A DNA stretch of 38,220 nt from a virus. Location of the stretch: the IMG/VR virus record IMGVR_UViG_3300038701_002518, positions 1 to 38,220 of that record. One strand, 5' to 3'. The notes beneath the pieces are model-generated. The model was not told the DNA's origin. It saw only the letters and a list, made by a program, of their open reading frames with translations, and made no database searches. The first letter of the stretch is position 1, and each line of letters opens with the position of its first letter. This document shows positions 10,642-32,269 of the stretch, in pieces. The position numbers were made by a program, and so were the translations under genes.

Positions 10642-11122
10642 GATTGGCTTTTATTCCTTTCTTCTTCTCTCACCCACTGAAGTTTCGCGAGGTTAAGCGT
10701 CCATTCATCATCGCTCAACTCTTGAGGGTTCGGTATATTCATGTAATATTGAAGCAAGGCATCGTTATGATTAATCCAGCTAAGCGATGCCTTTGCTTCT
10801 TCTAAAGCTTTTTTACGGTTACAGATTTTCGTTTGAGCAACTCATCAAGCTCTGCTTCCAAGGCTTCAAACAGCTCCCCCTCGAAATCTTTAAAGCCTTC
10901 GTACCCTCCCAGGTAACAATTCGTGAAAATGGATTCATTGAATTTCATCGGGTTCTTCTTACTTACCTGCATGGCCATACTCAGAATCTTTCGATCTGGC
11001 TTTTTGAGGTAACAGACACATTCATCCACTGTATAGCTGAACACCTCACCGTGCTTTGCTTTCAGGGCATCAACTTCCTTTAGAGTAAGCTGCCCTTTTA
11101 ATTCTTTAGTCTCGTTTTCCAT
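10638..11122 (-). CDS. Tail assembly chaperone, -1 frameshift product (G-T like)
   Basis: The zero-frame product (10802-11122, 106 aa) ends KSVTVKKL. At its end the codons GTA AAA AAG carry the slippery heptamer A AAA AAG (10814-10808). A -1 shift continues for 56 codons, containing ALEEAKASLSWINHND and LSDDEWTLNLAKLQW, to a TGA at 10640-10638 that overlaps the tape-measure ATG. The fusion is therefore about 161 aa. The -1 ORF has no start of its own. In tailed phages such G and G-T proteins bind the tape measure and recruit tube subunits. Location directly before the tape measure, length and the signal all agree. Confidence 0.85.
10751..10814 (-). promoter_or_regulatory. -1 ribosomal frameshift signal in tail chaperone gene
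   Basis: Slippery A AAA AAG at 10814-10808 is followed by an 8-nt spacer. The stem pairs 10799-10785 with 10764-10751: 14 pairs, one bulged A, and a 20-nt loop. The zero-frame stop TAG lies inside the spacer. Spacing and stem strength match known -1 frameshift stimulators such as dnaX. Confidence 0.85.
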
Positions 11123-12972: not shown

Positions 12973-13710
12973 TTATGCTGTCAGTTTTTCAAACCCGGCC
13001 TTTGCCTTGGCAAATAGTGCTGACTTATCGTCTTTAAGATCAAAGTCAATATCATGTTTATTCATCCAGTCAGCCATTACTTCCATTGTCCATTTCCACT
13101 CAGGTTTCTTTACCTCACCTTCTGGCGCGTTGACCGTCTCCCCTTGGGGGGAGTGACCATCGGTCGAGGGGGGTAACTCTTTATTGACTACCTCCTGAAC
13201 CTCTGGTTCTGTTACTTCAGTATTCTCATCCTTTGGCGCGCTGACAGTCTCCCCTTGAGGGGAGTGACCATCGGGCGAAGGGAGTAACTCTTCATTGACT
13301 ACCTCCTGAACCTCTGACTCTTTGGTATCAGGCTTTCCATCTACAGTCAGAGTAGTCACAGTACCATTAGCCTTAGCCTCTATGGCTTCACTTGCCTTAG
13401 CTGCTTTTACTTTTTCCCACTCCTCCTGTACCTGCTCTTCAGATAGGCCGCTAACTTTAGAGAGCAGTTCAATTCCATTCACGCCCTTACTGGCCTCAGA
13501 ATCCTGCCCTTCGGAGGAGGGGAGTAACGGCCTCTCAATCTCAAACCATTCACTTTTGATTGCCCTGGCATGAGAGATCGCATCGCTCTTTTTCTGATCA
13601 GTAAAAAACTGGCCATCAGGAGTAGCGTAAAACGTATCAACATCTTTGAAACTATCGAAGTAGTCACGAGACATCTCAATCAATTCTTCTTTGGTCTTAA
13701 TTTTCGCCAT
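12973..13710 (-). CDS. Conserved phage protein with repeat-expanded linker
   Basis: About 245 aa; MMAKIK at 13713 allows either of two adjacent ATGs. The N-terminal part (AKIKTKEELIEMSRDYFDSF, then YATPDGQFF and AISHARA) is a small Bacteroidota phage module found between head and tail genes. The C-terminal 40 residues (WTMEVMADWMNKHDIDFD, then KSALFAKAKAGFEKL) resemble a HeH/LEM-like helix-extension-helix. The middle is acidic and low-complexity. It has been built by three palindromic elements, two of them within a 37-codon tandem duplication. Role unknown; a head-tail joining or DNA-contact protein is possible. Confidence 0.6.
   Translation of the reverse strand: MAKIKTKEELIEMSRDYFDSFKDVDTFYATPDGQFFTDQKKSDAISHARAIKSEWFEIERPLLPSSEGQDSEASKGVNGIELLSKVSGLSEEQVQEEWEKVKAAKASEAIEAKANGTVTTLTVDGKPDTKESEVQEVVNEELLPSPDGHSPQGETVSAPKDENTEVTEPEVQEVVNKELPPSTDGHSPQGETVNAPEGEVKKPEWKWTMEVMADWMNKHDIDFDLKDDKSALFAKAKAGFEKLTA
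13137..13180 (+). repeat. Palindromic element, copy 2 (in frame)
   Basis: Reads GTCTCCCCTTGGGGGGAGTG, then a second stem ending GAGGGGGGTAAC. It lies inside the 245-aa gene, which translates it on the minus strand as ELPPSTDGHSPQGET without breaking the frame. Confidence 0.8.
13246..13290 (+). repeat. Palindromic element, copy 3 (in frame, tandem duplicate)
   Basis: The same element, translated as ELLPSPDGHSPQGET. Together with copy 2 it lies in a tandem duplication of 37 codons per unit that also repeats EVQEVVN upstream. The two units differ at several bases, so the duplication is not recent. Confidence 0.8.
13505..13528 (+). repeat. Palindromic element, copy 4 (partial)
   Basis: A half element, TGCCCTTCGGAGGAGGGGAG followed by TAAC, corresponds to the 3' half of the other copies. 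It is translated in frame as LLPSSEGQ within the same 245-aa gene. Confidence 0.55.
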
Positions 13711-19569: not shown

Positions 19570-20763
19570 ATGAACTCCATACAGAAATTAGCTATCAAGG
19601 CTTTACCTAAAAAGATGCAGGCGCAAATCGCCTTAAAACAAGTTACCCCACCTAGCAAATCGCTCACCGATCGCAAGCGGGTCAGCCATCAGTTAGAAAC
19701 TGATTTCAAATTTCGCTTTGAGATGGGACTCAACGCACTCAGGCAAGCAGAGGATTTGGCACGCGACCCTGAATTCCCTTCTCGCTATCATCTACTTCAG
19801 ATATACGATCGCATCATGAACGACTGTCACCTGTGGAGCCAGGCCGAAAACATGGACGACAAAGTATCAGGCTCACCATATACGGTCATTGATGAGAACA
19901 AAAAACCAGACGATCACCGTGCAGATCTATTCGAGCGAAATTGGTTTGAAGACTACTGCCGTCTCTTTTGCAGCGAGGAGTTATATGGCACTACCCTTAT
20001 TGAGTTTCAGGAGTTCATCAAATCATCAAACAAGCTTGTAGAATGGGAAGTTGGCGATGTTGAATTATTCCCTCGCGAGAATGTAGTTCCAGAAAAGGGC
20101 TGGATTGTCCTCAGCCCACAGGGCTATGTGAAGGGAATCCCTTATCGCGAAGAGCCTTGGAACACTTATCTCATTGAAGTAGGTAAGAAAAACAATCTGG
20201 GCAAGTTATTAAAAGCATGCCCGGAGGTGATTATCAAAAATTTCAGCCGCACAGACTGGAGTCAACACTCAGAAAAATACGGTAAACCAATGCTCAAAAT
20301 TGGCACTGAAACTACAGACACAGAAGAGCTAAACAAACTTGAGACTAACGCTAAAAACCTCGGCTCTAACGGCTATTGGATTGGCGACAAAGGTGATGAA
20401 GCCAGCCTTATGTCAGATTCTGGCAGAGGTGAGCCTCACAAAATCTATCTGGAAAACATCATGTATTCAGATACATCCAATTCCAAGTTAGTCACAGGCC
20501 AGCGTGGTGTAAGTGATGAGCAGGCATTTGTAGGCAGCACAGAAGCAGGCGAGCGAATGCTCAACGAAAGAGTCGAGGCCCGTATGAGACGTTTCCAACG
20601 CCATGTCAACGCTGTATTAATCCCTAAGCTTATCGAATTCGGTTACCCTCTGGAAGGCTACAAGTTCACTTTCCTTGCTTTCATGGACGAAAAGAAGGAG
20701 AAGAACAAAGGCGATCAAGAACCTAATGACGACAATCCCGGAGGTGATAGCGAGGGAAAGTAG
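19570..20763 (+). CDS. Portal protein (DUF935, Mu gp29-like)
   Basis: A 397-aa dodecameric vertex subunit. Family marks include LETDFKFRFEMGLNAL, IYDRIMNDCHLWSQ, the aromatic GTTLIEFQEF core, and VVPEKGWIVLSP. GEAGERMLNERVEARMRRFQ-like text near the end is the helix bordering the tunnel. Shorter than Mu gp29 (512 aa) but similar to other Bacteroidota DUF935 proteins. The reading frame stops with GGA AAG TAG. This is a slippery heptamer followed by a hairpin, so a fraction of ribosomes may continue into the MuF frame. The acidic, Asn/Gly-rich C-terminus is probably a flexible linker. Confidence 0.85.
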   Translation: MNSIQKLAIKALPKKMQAQIALKQVTPPSKSLTDRKRVSHQLETDFKFRFEMGLNALRQAEDLARDPEFPSRYHLLQIYDRIMNDCHLWSQAENMDDKVSGSPYTVIDENKKPDDHRADLFERNWFEDYCRLFCSEELYGTTLIEFQEFIKSSNKLVEWEVGDVELFPRENVVPEKGWIVLSPQGYVKGIPYREEPWNTYLIEVGKKNNLGKLLKACPEVIIKNFSRTDWSQHSEKYGKPMLKIGTETTDTEELNKLETNAKNLGSNGYWIGDKGDEASLMSDSGRGEPHKIYLENIMYSDTSNSKLVTGQRGVSDEQAFVGSTEAGERMLNERVEARMRRFQRHVNAVLIPKLIEFGYPLEGYKFTFLAFMDEKKEKNKGDQEPNDDNPGGDSEGK

Positions 20764-20782
20764 AAGGCTCCACTGATGGAGC
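20754..20782 (+). promoter_or_regulatory. Candidate -1 frameshift signal at portal stop
   Basis: The last sense codons read GAG GGA AAG TAG, so G GGA AAG (20754-20760) fits the X XXY YYZ rule in the correct phase. A spacer TAGAAG of 6 nt is followed by GCTCCA-CTGA-TGGAGC (20767-20782), a perfect 6-bp stem with tetraloop. After slippage the MuF frame is entered at GTA (20760). Confidence 0.65.
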
Positions 20783-22175
20783 ATCACCATTCACCAAAAC
20801 AATCATCGCTTATTACACCAGCAACTGCACCCACACGCACGAACAATCTCCCCCTAAGAGGGGGAGTGGCGAAGCCGAGGGGGTAGAAGCCAAACAAAAA
20901 GATCTTTTCCCCTGGGAGCAGTTCATAAAAAGAGCCGCCAGGCGCATCTATGACCGTAAACTTGTAGGCGGTCAAATAGATCTTTCCACATGGGAGCAAA
21001 CAGCCCTATCACTCTGGAAAGGGACAAAATCAGGCTTTGGCCCTGTAGAATTCGGCACAGACAACCATGCTTTGCTACTACAATTCAAGTACAACATACA
21101 TGTATTTGCAGCCTTCAAAAATCATCAAAACATAGGAGCTATCGCTGATGCCCTCATTGATGACAAAGGAAAGATCAAGTCTTATCGTCAGTTCGAAAGA
21201 GAAGCTCTGGCCATAAGTAAAAACTACAACCGCAATTGGCTGCGCACAGAATACAACATTGCAGTTCGCAGAGCGCGCACAGCTCACAACCTGAACAAAG
21301 CCCTGGACAATACCGATCTCTATCCCAATTGGGAATACATCAAAAGCAAAGCAGCCGATCCACGCGAAGAGCACAAGAAATACTATGGCAAGGTGTTTTC
21401 GCTTCTCACCACAGTGGGCAAATCGGTTATACCACCCAATGGAGAAAATTGCCAATGTGGTTGGAGGCCCACAAACAAGGCTGTCACGGATGAAAACCCA
21501 GATACAAGCATTATCAAAGATCAGTTCTTGGAAGACCCTACTGATACGGGAAGAGTATTCAGTGATTTGCATCCATACTTCAATGTGCAAGAAGACTTTC
21601 AAAAGTGGTCTACCAAAAACTGGAACATCGATTTACCCGCAAGCCCTGATAAAATCACCAATATTTTCAAGGTTTGGAAGCGTGTCAGCAAATCAGACAG
21701 TTACACCATCGAGCACAAAAACAAAGACACAGGCGGTTTTGTAGCAGCTCACAAAAAACATGGTAAAGCCGAACTAACAGAGAACATCAAAGTAGCCAAA
21801 ACTCTCGCTGATAGAAATTCCGATGCTGTCATTCTCCAACCAATCAAGCACGATGCAAAAAGCGCAGACGCTATTGTCAGTGGCCAGGTAACGGAGTTCA
21901 AAGCAATTGGCCCCACTGCCAAGCTCAGCAACACAATCAACAGGCACATGGCCAAAGCCCGAGCACAGGGGGCCGAACAATTAGTAATCACATTGCCTGC
22001 CAAAGTTAACTTCAAAAACCTATCGAAGGGCATTCGAAGAGCCTTTGAAAATGACAGCCAAGGCAAAATCAAGACAATCATTTTCATCTACAAACAAAAG
22101 CTAGTGAGCATCACAAGAGCCTCTTGGCTCAAAAACAGTGTAGACCATTGGATACAAAAAAAGCTGAAAGACTAG
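20760..22175 (+). CDS. MuF minor head protein with nuclease-like C-terminus
   Basis: The frame is open from 20751 to 22175 but has no ATG, GTG or TTG before TTG 21072. Starting there would cut off conserved-looking sequence (LFPWEQFIKRAARRIYD and LWKGTKSGFGPVEFG). It is therefore annotated as the -1 frameshift extension of the portal (471 extra residues; about 868 aa in total). The MuF/gp30 domain covers KNHQNIGAIADALID to PPNGENCQCGW, the last being the conserved metal-binding end. The C-terminal part (about 21650-22170) contains YTIEHKNKDTGGFVAAHKK and SADAIVSGQVTEFKAIG, a D-x8-E-x-K set as in CdiA-CT tRNases. It may be a delivered toxin. Confidence 0.7.
   Translation, partial: VEGSTDGASPFTKTIIAYYTSNCTHTHEQSPPKRGSGEAEGVEAKQKDLFPWEQFIKRAARRIYDRKLVGGQIDLSTWEQTALSLWKGTKSGFGPVEFGTDNHALLLQFKYNIHVFAAFKNHQNIGAIADALIDDKGKIKSYRQFEREALAISKNYNRNWLRTEYNIAVRRARTAHNLNKALDNTDLYPNWEYIKSKAADPREEHKKYYGKVFSLLTTVGKSVIPPNGENCQCGWRPTNKAVTDENPDTSIIKDQFLEDPTDTGRVFSDLHPYFNVQEDFQKWSTKNWNIDLPASPDKITNIFKVWKRVSKSDSYTIEHKNKDTGGFVAAHKKHGKAELTENIKVAKTLADRNSDAVILQPIKHDAKSADAIVSGQVTEFKAIGPTAKLSNTINRHMAKARAQGAEQLVITLPAKVNFKNLSKGIRRAFENDSQGKIKTIIFIYKQKLVSITRASWLKNSVDHWIQKKLKD
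20847..20888 (+). repeat. Palindromic element, copy 5 (in the MuF N-terminal frame)
   Basis: CTCCCCCTAAGAGGGGGAG, then TGGCGAAGCCGAGGGGG. It is read in the plus direction here and keeps the MuF frame open as QSPPKRGSGEAEGVE. It lies in the linker between portal and MuF core, where an insertion would be tolerated. Confidence 0.75.
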
Positions 22176-22235: not shown

Positions 22236-22760
22236 ATGTCGAAACGTAACATGCAGCAATTCTCAGTTGACCTAAAACAGATCAAAGAAGATCTGGAAAA
22301 ACTGATGAATAATGACATCCCGCGAATAGTAGGCAGAGAAGCTGTCAACTTCTACAAGGCCTCGTTTGACAATCAAGGTTTCACCAAGAAGCGCAAGGGT
22401 AAATGGAAGGGTAGAATATATGACACCAAAGAGCAGAAAGGTAAACCCATCCTTCACGGTAGCGGGGAGCTGGAAGAGAGTATCGATTACCGTATTGAAT
22501 CAGGCAAGGTCATCATCTTCTCAGATAAGGAGTATGCCGAAATTATGAATGAAGGAGGCAAAATACCAGTAACTGACAAGATGCGAAAATTCATGTGGGC
22601 CATGTACTACGAAACTGATGACGAGTTTTACAAAAAATTTGCCCTCACCAAAAAGAAGACAATCACCATACCCAAACGTCAGTTTATGGGCTTCTCTGAT
22701 AAGCTAAACAGCATCATAGAAAAACAGATTGATAACCGGGTAGACGAAATTTTCAAGTAA
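22236..22760 (+). CDS. Virion morphogenesis protein, gpG/gp31-like
   Basis: A 174-aa protein from ATG 22236 (MSKRNMQQFSVDLKQIKEDL); the in-frame TTG at 22203 is less likely. The order MuF then gpG is that of Mu. The core NFYKASFDNQGFTKKRKGKW, followed by GKPILHGSGELEESIDYRI and AEIMNEGGKIP, is the signature of the phage virion morphogenesis family (W..LK.SG.L..SI, YA..H..G). It ends with IPKRQFMGFSDKL, also conserved. Acts in tail completion or head-tail joining. Confidence 0.85.
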   Translation: MSKRNMQQFSVDLKQIKEDLEKLMNNDIPRIVGREAVNFYKASFDNQGFTKKRKGKWKGRIYDTKEQKGKPILHGSGELEESIDYRIESGKVIIFSDKEYAEIMNEGGKIPVTDKMRKFMWAMYYETDDEFYKKFALTKKKTITIPKRQFMGFSDKLNSIIEKQIDNRVDEIFK

Positions 22761-25742: not shown

Positions 25743-25787
25743 CATATGTACACCAAAGTATTTAACTAACCTCCTGTGCGCTGGCCT

Positions 25788-25830
25788 GTCTCCCCCTCGG
25801 GGGAGTGCCCTCAGGGCGAGGGGGGTAACT
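25788..25830 (+). repeat. Palindromic element, copy 6
   Basis: GTCTCCCCCTCGGGGGAGTG, then a GCCCT / AGGGC stem and GAGGGGGGTAAC. It provides the last residues ELPPSP and the stop codon of the secreted protein on the minus strand. Confidence 0.8.
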
Positions 25831-27580: not shown

Positions 27581-28034
27581 TTCTAAATTCAAATAATATC
27601 TCTTGAATGTTCTTTTTGATCTGAAGTAGGCCCACTTGCTTTTGAATAAACTCACTCAGAAGACTCCAATTATCAAACATATACTGCCATCCTTCCAGAG
27701 CAAGCAGCTCATCACCGTTCACCTTCTCCTGTTTCATCAGGTAGTCCACTGTTTCCTTCAGAGCACGACCATTAGCCGCGTTCATATGAGCCGGAGCACC
27801 CAGCTTTTTTCGGCAAAACTGATCATACGCCCCAACAAACTCCTGATATCGTTCCAGCTTGATCACCTTCTTACGGGTAGGCTGTCCTCCCTTGGGGGAG
27901 GTGCCGCAGGCGGAGGGGGTTACCTGCACTTCCACCAACGTCTCCCTAATAGCCCCTAAAGCCTCCCGTTCCACATCACTATTAGCAAAGCCAAGTAACT
28001 CATCCACAAACGCTATTTGCTGATCAATCCTCAT
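27504..28034 (-). CDS. Hypothetical early protein with element-derived insert
   Basis: A 176-aa protein. The N-terminal helix (DQQIAFVDELLGFANSD) is followed by a palindromic-element peptide TPSACGTSPKGGQPT around residues 39-53. The main domain has KLERYQEFVGAYDQFCRKKLGAPAHMNAANGRALKETVDYL, a pattern frequent in early genes of Bacteroidota phages next to the preceding family. Its ATG overlaps the upstream gene by 11 nt. Function unknown. Confidence 0.55.
   Translation of the reverse strand: MRIDQQIAFVDELLGFANSDVEREALGAIRETLVEVQVTPSACGTSPKGGQPTRKKVIKLERYQEFVGAYDQFCRKKLGAPAHMNAANGRALKETVDYLMKQEKVNGDELLALEGWQYMFDNWSLLSEFIQKQVGLLQIKKNIQEILFEFRNASKSAKRRHSENEWDQLNSSLKGE
27881..27923 (+). repeat. 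Palindromic element, copy 7 (in frame)
   Basis: GCTGTCCTCCCTTGGGGGAG, then GTGCCGCAGGCGGAGGGGGTTACC. Lies inside the 176-aa gene, where it joins the N-terminal helix to the main domain without frameshift. Confidence 0.8.
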
Positions 28035-28854: not shown

Positions 28855-28894
28855 TCTCCCCCTTAAAGAGGGAGTGGCGAAGCCGAGGGGGTTA
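28855..28894 (+). repeat. Palindromic element, copy 8
   Basis: TCTCCCCCTTAAAGAGGGAG, then TGGCGAAGCCGAGGGGGTTA. Intergenic. It flanks the tRNA-like sequence on one side, in the same orientation as copy 9. Confidence 0.8.
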
Positions 28895-31055: not shown

Positions 31056-31566
31056 AACTCACCTCCTTAACTCCTCCGAGATGTCCGTCTGATCTTGGAA
31101 ATTCTGGTTGAGCAGTGCCAGTCTCCCCCTTGGGGGAGTGCCCAACGGGCGAGGGGGGTATGGCGGAGGGGGTTAAGTTCCTCACCCTCTCCATTTCAGC
31201 ATGTCTGATGGTAATAGCATTCACTTTACCCTTCGTAGGAATCCAGGCAGTACCATCATTATTAAGCCATTCCAAGCTCACTTCCTTCCCATACATACCC
31301 GCCAACTCAGAAGGAGTCGTAAGACCTTTTTTAGCAGGCATCGTATGCACAGGCTCAAAGAGGTTCGACTGATTCACAGCCGAATTATCCATATTTATCA
31401 TATTGATAAGCCCTAAAAGCTGTTTCTCAGCTTTCTTCATTTCCCTCAGGCTTATCTGTGGTAGGCTCTGATTTTTCCTGCCTCTGAAGTAGTCATACTG
31501 CATATCCAGCACCCTTTTCACTTCCACAGAAAAAGCATGTAGCTCAGTCCTTGCAGGATTACTCAT
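31048..31566 (-). CDS. Hypothetical early protein with element-derived tail
   Basis: A 172-aa protein from ATG 31566, an 8-nt overlap with the ATPase gene. A longer frame to 31638 has no support. Helical N-terminal part, then MYGKEVSLEWLNNDGTAWIPTKGKVNAITIRHAE, a small beta domain with Trp. The last 40 residues, beginning IPPSPVGHSPKGETGTAQ, come from a palindromic element and following sequence. Function unknown. Confidence 0.55.
   Translation of the reverse strand: MSNPARTELHAFSVEVKRVLDMQYDYFRGRKNQSLPQISLREMKKAEKQLLGLINMINMDNSAVNQSNLFEPVHTMPAKKGLTTPSELAGMYGKEVSLEWLNNDGTAWIPTKGKVNAITIRHAEMERVRNLTPSAIPPSPVGHSPKGETGTAQPEFPRSDGHLGGVKEVSYE
31121..31175 (+). repeat. Palindromic element, copy 10 (in frame)
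   Basis: GTCTCCCCCTTGGGGGAGTG, then CCCAACGGGCGAGGGGGGTA, with an extra GGCGGAGGGGGTTA end repeated. In frame within the preceding gene (PPSPVGHSPKGET). Confidence 0.8.
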
Positions 31567-32269
31567 GATCACCTCCTTCCTTGCCTTGCGCACTGGCTGT
31601 CTCCCCTTTGGGGGATTGCCCAACGGGCGAGGCTTCAAAAAGCGTCCCTTTCAAAGGGTCAACCTTCGGTATCTCCTTACTCATATCCCTCACCACAAAG
31701 TCACAGCCAGCACCAAACCTAGAAGCTCGGCACTTAGCCACAAAGTCCTCCAATCGTATTTTGATATCACACAAATGCATGATTGGCTTATTCTTCACCT
31801 TATCAGCGAGGTAGGCTACGAGTATGAAGTTCTTGTTTGGAAACTCCTCAAACAGTTCTTGCACCTGTTTAGCAGAAAGAGGAAAAAAGCTGATCGAGTC
31901 GATGATCACAAACCTGCCACTATTCTGCCTCCTAAGCTGTTCCTTAAGTTTCTCAAAGTTCTGGAGACCCCTATAGATAAATTTACCCCCTGGTATCTCT
32001 TCAAACTTGTTTCGAATTGCGCTGATCTGTATCCCTTTGTGCTTTTTCTGCTCGCAGTTATTCAGAAACACCTTCTTATTCAGAAATATGCAAATCACCT
32101 TAGCCAACATCATCAGGTATTCAGTTTTACCATGCCCTCCATCACCGTCCACATACATAGAAAAGTTCTGTGGCACATCTCCAAGGTGATCAAGCCACTC
32201 CTTAGGCAAGTCCTGATCTTTAAATGACCATGACATAATGGCACTCACGCCATATCCTTTTTCAGACAT
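31559..32269 (-). CDS. P-loop ATPase, RecA-like
   Basis: A 236-aa protein from ATG 32269 (MSEKGYGVSAIMSW). Walker A is GDGGHGKTEYLM near residues 43-54. Walker B is GRFVIIDSISF near 115-125, with a sensor-like NFILVAYL following. This is the core order of a small RecA/KaiC-type ATPase without extra domains. The C-terminal 30 residues are provided by a palindromic element (EASPVGQSPKGETASAQ). In this early position a role in DNA replication or recombination is inferred. The family name is not recognised. Confidence 0.65.
   Translation of the reverse strand: MSEKGYGVSAIMSWSFKDQDLPKEWLDHLGDVPQNFSMYVDGDGGHGKTEYLMMLAKVICIFLNKKVFLNNCEQKKHKGIQISAIRNKFEEIPGGKFIYRGLQNFEKLKEQLRRQNSGRFVIIDSISFFPLSAKQVQELFEEFPNKNFILVAYLADKVKNKPIMHLCDIKIRLEDFVAKCRASRFGAGCDFVVRDMSKEIPKVDPLKGTLFEASPVGQSPKGETASAQGKEGGDHE
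31599..31633 (+). repeat. Palindromic element, copy 11 (in frame)
   Basis: GTCTCCCCTTTGGGGGATTG, then CCCAACGGGCGAGGC. It forms the C-terminus of the P-loop ATPase in the same reading frame as copies 2, 3 and 10. Confidence 0.8.

Follow-up and report, generated by a model that had tools for sequence, protein, structure and literature searches.

How does a Mu-like phage come to translate a gene that appears to lack a start codon? The question is raised by the IMG/VR virus record IMGVR_UViG_3300038701_002518 (G000), whose 38,220 bases were analyzed over their full length and are referred to here as the window. In this record a portal gene is followed by an overlapping frame that encodes a MuF domain and a toxin-like domain. 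A preliminary description of the sequence had proposed that translation of the portal gene shifts into this frame, and the proposal is now supported by a conserved signal and by start-less -1 coding in related phages. On this sequence evidence, it is very probable that a programmed -1 ribosomal frameshifting signal lies at the 3' end of the portal gene and would yield a minor portal-MuF-toxin fusion.

The portal gene of the window is of the Mu type and occupies positions 19570 to 20763 of the plus strand, where its zero frame encodes 397 amino acids that match Portal_Mu (PF06074, E=2.7e-43). The open reading frame (ORF) ends in frame with GAG GGA AAG TAG, the stop codon lying at 20761-20763. 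Immediately adjoining this stop, at 20754 to 20760, is the slippery heptamer G_GGA_AAG, which has the form X_XXY_YYZ and is in phase with the portal frame. A chance origin is unlikely, since in-phase canonical heptamers are found at a rate of only 0.004 per codon inside the portal ORFs surveyed below. A 6-nt spacer (UAGAAG, 20761 to 20766), which holds the zero-frame stop, separates the heptamer from a putative stimulatory hairpin, GCUCCA-CUGA-UGGAGC, at 20767 to 20782 of the same strand. The hairpin has a perfect 6-bp stem and a tetraloop, and its position at +6 falls within the 5-9 nt or so at which an RNA structure is looked for in such signals. The 40 nt from 20761 have a minimum free energy (MFE) of -9.8 kcal/mol (z -2.58), and only 1 of 200 shuffled sequences folds as well. 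Both the heptamer and the hairpin had been picked out in the preliminary description and are found exactly as it gave them. A reading of the hairpin as a transcription terminator was rejected, because no T-run follows it on the plus strand. The most efficient -1 motifs in Escherichia coli include G_GG.A_AA.G and A_AA.A_AA.G, and U_UU.U_UU.C is likewise shift-prone there (PMC4066793). A blastn search of annotated phages with the window junction gave no match.

The MuF-toxin frame lies at -1 relative to the portal gene and is open from stop to stop between 20751 and 22175 on the plus strand. Its first start codon is a TTG at 21072, 311 nt past the start of the portal stop, and its first ATG lies 1187 nt past that stop. 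The earlier statements that the frame is open through the whole MuF gene, and that about 310 nt are free of ATG, GTG and TTG, are therefore borne out by measurement. The MuF domain is directly downstream of the portal gene at 21186 to 21458 (Phage_Mu_F, PF04233), with a score of 26.3 bits (E=1.3e-5) that is slightly below the curated cut-off of 29.6; the same family is above its cut-off in the relatives L008 (65.9 bits), L079 (75.4 bits), L137 and L141. As in other MuF polymorphic toxins, the C-terminus carries a toxin domain, a CdiA_C nuclease/toxin-like domain at 21858 to 22091 (PF18451; 36.5 bits against a cut-off of 26.6) that is also above cut-off in the contig L003. Other toxin domains occupy the place behind MuF elsewhere, including Gln_amidase in hankyphage and PBECR2 in Flavobacterium phage fF4. 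Initiation at 21072 would cut off the stretch LFPWEQFIKRAARRIYD..., LWKGTKSGFG, which had been called protein-like; it is conserved in relatives and, by eye, matches the N-terminal part of MuF proteins that have a gene of their own, as in lotta8. The predicted fusion, with the junction ...GDSEGK|VEGSTDGASPFTK..., has 868 amino acids. A fusion of about 97 kDa had been foreseen, of which the fusion stands and the figure becomes 99.1 kDa.

The closest relative of the window is the IMG/VR contig L003, whose portal is 77-78% identical. It shares the GGGAAAG TAG junction, with the identical heptamer at the identical distance, as well as the 6-nt spacing, the -1 frame and the same domains. Its hairpin is of a different sequence, with a 13-bp stem that starts exactly 6 nt after the heptamer, and is stronger than that of the window (MFE -25.9 kcal/mol, z -4.03); it was missed by a 45-nt fold and is visible in a longer one. 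This contig bears directly on the suggestion that the MuF gene of the window is simply broken, a sequencing error or real indel having removed its start, perhaps in connection with a repeat at 20847. Such an accident might be suspected in a single uncurated virus record in which a mobile palindromic repeat interrupts the start-less stretch (20847 to 20884 on the plus strand, translated as a linker, with a 92% identical copy at 28855-28892). Yet heptamer and frame are the same in L003, itself an independent contig that has a comparable repeat at the same place in the MuF N-terminus, the -1 frame of the window is open throughout with its MuF and CdiA_C domains kept, and the layout recurs in dozens of genomes; a broken gene is therefore most improbable. 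An IMG/VR scan with the MuF part of the window returned nothing beyond the L003 contig. The pairwise ratio of nonsynonymous to synonymous divergence (dN/dS) of the two is uninformative, because the stretch before the ATG of L003 is short and saturated, and too diverged to align.

The wider distribution of the signal was followed in 109 Mu-type portal loci, taken from a genome sample, IMG/VR scans and annotated phages, with MuF recognized by a hidden Markov model built in this analysis. The genome sample is an even set of 395 genomes from the phylum of 'Bacteroidetes bacterium 4572_117', and its loci with a recognized MuF comprise 13 of the frameshift type, 2 fused and 12 separate. The IMG/VR share was seeded with frameshift-type and fused loci, so that class proportions in the survey as a whole are biased. 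A scan of the genome collection with the portal alignment returned one genome, the host of L006. An in-phase canonical heptamer lies 46 to 7 nt before the portal stop in 38 of the 44 loci, dereplicated at 90% portal identity, in which MuF overlaps at -1, where 2.4 are expected from the background rate given above, and in 29 of these 38 it is at exactly -7 or -10; because the loci share ancestry, the counts do not stand for independent events. All six loci that lack the heptamer have a start codon at, or no more than 7 nt from, the portal stop. The heptamer is found in 1 of 13 separate-gene loci in other frames and in 1 of 19 loci without a recognized MuF, and the signal is absent from the Mu-like phages of Gammaproteobacteria and others that were included (L142-L144, L148, L149). 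Among Peternella-type relatives, L096 has MuF in frame 0 after a gap that follows the portal stop, and may be an assembly or indel variant. The preliminary description had suggested an alignment of homologues, and the heptamer, the -1 phase and the structure that follows do recur in the 38 widely diverged loci.

The RNA that follows the heptamer is also conserved in its folding. The 45 nt after the heptamer have a median fold z of -1.68, versus -0.07 for portal interiors (p=2.6e-6). Nearly all U_UUU_UUC loci have a GC-rich stem that starts 5-6 nt downstream and varies in sequence with its pairing kept. In nine such loci of the same layout, all 72 of the 72 cells of the helix are paired and three of its eight pairs are changed on both sides, a covariation score that is reached by none of 500 shuffles and is destroyed when the partner strand is slid. 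The main heptamer types are U_UUU_UUC, A_AAA_AAG/A, G_GGA_AAG and A_AAU_UUU, and the type switches several times among related loci. The composition of these sites is of importance in considering transcriptional slippage, whereby RNA polymerase would add or drop a base and so restore the frame. Runs of 9-10 A at the junctions of Peternella_1, the A_AAA_AAG clade, L005 and L006 would suit this process and weigh, in those loci, against a ribosomal shift. However, the longest run in the GGGAAAG of the window is of three bases and the largest group has T6C, and polymerase slippage usually needs longer runs than these. A hairpin placed 6 nt downstream, moreover, is the layout of a ribosomal stimulator, and polymerase slippage is thus scarcely to be expected as the general explanation.

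Evidence that the -1 frame is read as protein before any start comes from the A_AAA_AAG clade, most members of which are start-less for 335-677 nt past the portal stop. Over 108-219 codons of the -1 frame upstream of any start, dN is far below dS, with pooled proportions of synonymous and nonsynonymous differences (pS and pN) of 0.60 and 0.25. Differences at codon positions 1, 2 and 3 number 1295, 922 and 2121, a third-position excess, in counts that are not independent as the pairs are kin. This is selection at the protein level upstream of starts, as is looked for in programmed frameshifting. In the window itself, the support for -1 coding is a Cys/His motif common to relatives. Within its clade, a Tyr followed by Cys and Cys/His residues recurs just after the shift, as YYTSNCTHTH in the window (20811 to 20840, plus strand), HYNTECCGH in L008, YYNQPQCTHDH in L093, YYEKPVCSH in L094, YSGQCHHC in L059 and YSHVCPKC in L098. 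The motif is upstream of every start codon in six out of six of these, and it has equivalents in L003, L064, L067 and L072. Segments that span the two frames are also kept as protein, for example FFRLSP and FFRESPG.RRGSFR. Translation of the start-less stretch is therefore backed by the low dN of one clade and by a motif that extends to the window.

Several named phages have the same portal-MuF layout, namely Winogradskyella phage Peternella_1, Flavobacterium phage fF4, Bacteroides phage BS-TP1 and hankyphage p00. Peternella_1 is annotated with two genes, the second of which begins at a GTG 98 nt after the first. Hankyphage p00 has U_UUU_UUC 46 nt before the portal stop and a hairpin at +6, with the -1 junction ...NWLKRFF|RESPGERRGSFRMVINDLY, and its MuF protein (L141, 4130-5630) carries Gln_amidase, a papain-fold toxin domain.

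In a different explanation, a separate MuF protein is made, either from a non-standard start such as ATC or ATT just past the portal stop or through termination-reinitiation, and the signal of heptamer and hairpin is incidental. Hankyphage has an ATG 4 nt before its portal stop, besides the frameshift signal, and in L003 an ATG follows the stop by 59 nt, shortly beyond the 3' side of the stem, where the window has ATC. The distant phages FPSV-S1 and lotta8 start MuF at their own ATG just past the portal stop. All of these weigh against a programmed shift, as does the absence of a simple hairpin after several A-run heptamers in the folds of the surveyed loci. The ATG of L003 would allow independent initiation there, usable starts near the junction in L003, hankyphage and several others mean that independent MuF may be made too, and the arrangement in FPSV-S1 and lotta8 indicates that the fusion is not required by all phages. 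Against the incidental status of the signal, a heptamer at fixed distance and a covarying hairpin recur where the frame is start-less for hundreds of bases, the -1-frame loci that do without the heptamer all have a start codon at the junction, and the trans-frame segment is conserved as protein. A separate MuF as the sole product is therefore considered unlikely, and a programmed -1 shift best accounts for the window.

A further class of loci encodes portal and MuF in one ORF. There are 12 such dereplicated loci, including Porphyromonas gingivalis phage records annotated as an 853-aa 'portal'; the fused loci with a conserved slippery site, in P. gingivalis phages and their relatives, are L011 and L119-L133. 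U_UUU_UUC is present in 7 of the 12, with a hairpin at +5/6 in each, and the fused locus L132 has C_CCU_UUU with a 10-bp hairpin at +6. In most fused loci the -1 frame closes within 56-74 nt, so that slippage would yield the portal alone. In the P. gingivalis-type clade the two Phe codons are TTT TTC in all 15 aligned sequences, whereas at every other invariant Phe column of the alignment both codons occur and TTC is the commoner. Of 151 invariant degenerate codons, just 8 are the same in every sequence. The fixing of TTT TTC while other invariant codons vary argues that the frameshift signal is under selection in the fused class too. On a quick portal tree with some long branches, the frameshift loci fall into two or more groups, which gives at least two origins. 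One is a large clade of 44 rows, of which 30 are frameshift, 12 fused and 2 separate; another is the A_AAA_AAG clade of 7, nested among separate-gene loci. On the same tree, the fused state needs about five changes.

From these observations we consider it reasonably probable that a recoding switch with two interconvertible polarities sets the ratio of portal to portal-MuF(-toxin) in the Mu-type phages of Bacteroidota. The polarities would be slip to fuse, as in the window, hankyphage and Peternella_1, and slip to truncate, as in the P. gingivalis phages. It counts against a uniform scheme that the fusion would stay the major product of the fused class unless slippage is very efficient, and one copy-number logic may thus not suit all loci.

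In the window, most ribosomes would end at the UAG and produce the plain portal protein. A minority would slip back one base on G_GGA_AAG, aided by the hairpin 6 nt downstream, and read on through MuF and CdiA_C to give the 99-kDa fusion. In the dodecameric ring the fusion would then assemble together with the plain portal, much as Gag-Pol joins Gag, and so place a few MuF copies inside the head beside the DNA channel. The most likely role of the fusion would be to set the number of MuF copies per portal ring, a number fixed by the efficiency of the slip and not by a separate promoter, start codon or binding site. A slip rate of about 8-17% would give 1-2 MuF per 12-mer without a binding step, a copy number like that of SPP1.

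Around the junction, the next gene is Phage_tail_S-like (22239-22760, by profile match). No small immunity-like ORF was recognized beside the MuF-toxin frame, though no homology search was aimed at one. A PDB sequence search with the C-terminal domain gave no match, and a single-sequence structure prediction of the MuF-CdiA_C part was discarded (pLDDT 43). Further GC-rich palindromic repeats are located at 13123-13280, 25775-25827, 27889-27922, 31108-31175 and 31586-31632, and several of the dispersed repeats are translated in frame within genes as SPxGHSPKGE-like peptides. On the minus strand, a tail-chaperone-like ORF (11122..10650) ends GTA AAA AAG CTT TAG and its -1 frame continues KALEEAKASLSWINHNDALLQYYMN..., a classical gpG/GT-type A_AAA_AAG site near 10810 in the same phage; this second arrangement speaks in favor of the portal reading.

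The proposal would bring programmed frameshifting, itself a known process, to a new gene pair with an unusual reversal of polarity. The portal vertex would be added to the few virion components that recoding produces in two forms, and it would be explained how a 12-fold ring carries only a few copies of MuF or toxin. If the switch operates as suggested, it sets the MuF/toxin copies per portal ring that are carried into the next cell; polymorphic toxins are proposed to travel on MuF proteins, so that the dose delivered would be given by the ratio between the two forms. The frame-swapped states provide a natural experiment on why the virus needs both products. Gene models would be affected in hankyphage p00, Peternella_1 and fF4, which are annotated with two genes, and in the P. 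gingivalis phages, which are annotated with one long portal. The preliminary description knew of no portal-MuF frameshift, and none was found in the searchable open literature, which leaves out most subscription journals and whose silence is not proof; the search returned frameshifting in tail chaperones, capsid proteins and IS elements.

The nearest known systems include the tail chaperones. Phage lambda reportedly makes gpG and gpGT by a -1 frameshift (Xu et al. 2004). TP901-1 uses GGGAAAG (PMC4493119), the same heptamer as the window. In both, as proposed here, a -1 slip near the 3' end of a structural-assembly gene leads to a minor, C-terminally extended form; the lambda-type site is just upstream of the tape measure, whereas the present one lies between portal and MuF, and the extension of the portal would be a head protein that includes a toxin-like domain. 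Frameshift-extended capsid proteins of T3/T7, Lactobacillus phage A2 and Listeria phage PSA likewise give a virion component in a short and an extended form (PMC5009743), but in the part of that review consulted, from which the word 'portal' is absent, it is the major capsid protein that is extended, often by Ig-like domains, and none of the examples is portal or MuF. Single-gene portal-MuF fusions of Microbacterium phages (subclusters EA3/EA5/EA8 and cluster EB; PMC7302621) also form one chain, but from a continuous gene for which recoding is not reported there. In the MuF polymorphic toxins (Jamet et al. 2017, PMC5576092), MuF is similarly downstream of the portal and has a C-terminal toxin domain, and the MuF protein gp7 of SPP1 binds the portal in 1-2 copies per capsid (PMC5576092) and is targeted to the procapsid interior (PMC6316719). 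These are products of separate genes, whereas MuF in the window lacks its own start and is most probably translated by way of the shift. Finally, in its logic but with no claim of homology, the fusion resembles Gag-Pol, which is packaged via its structural half, and the fused class resembles dnaX, in which the shift truncates the full-length product.
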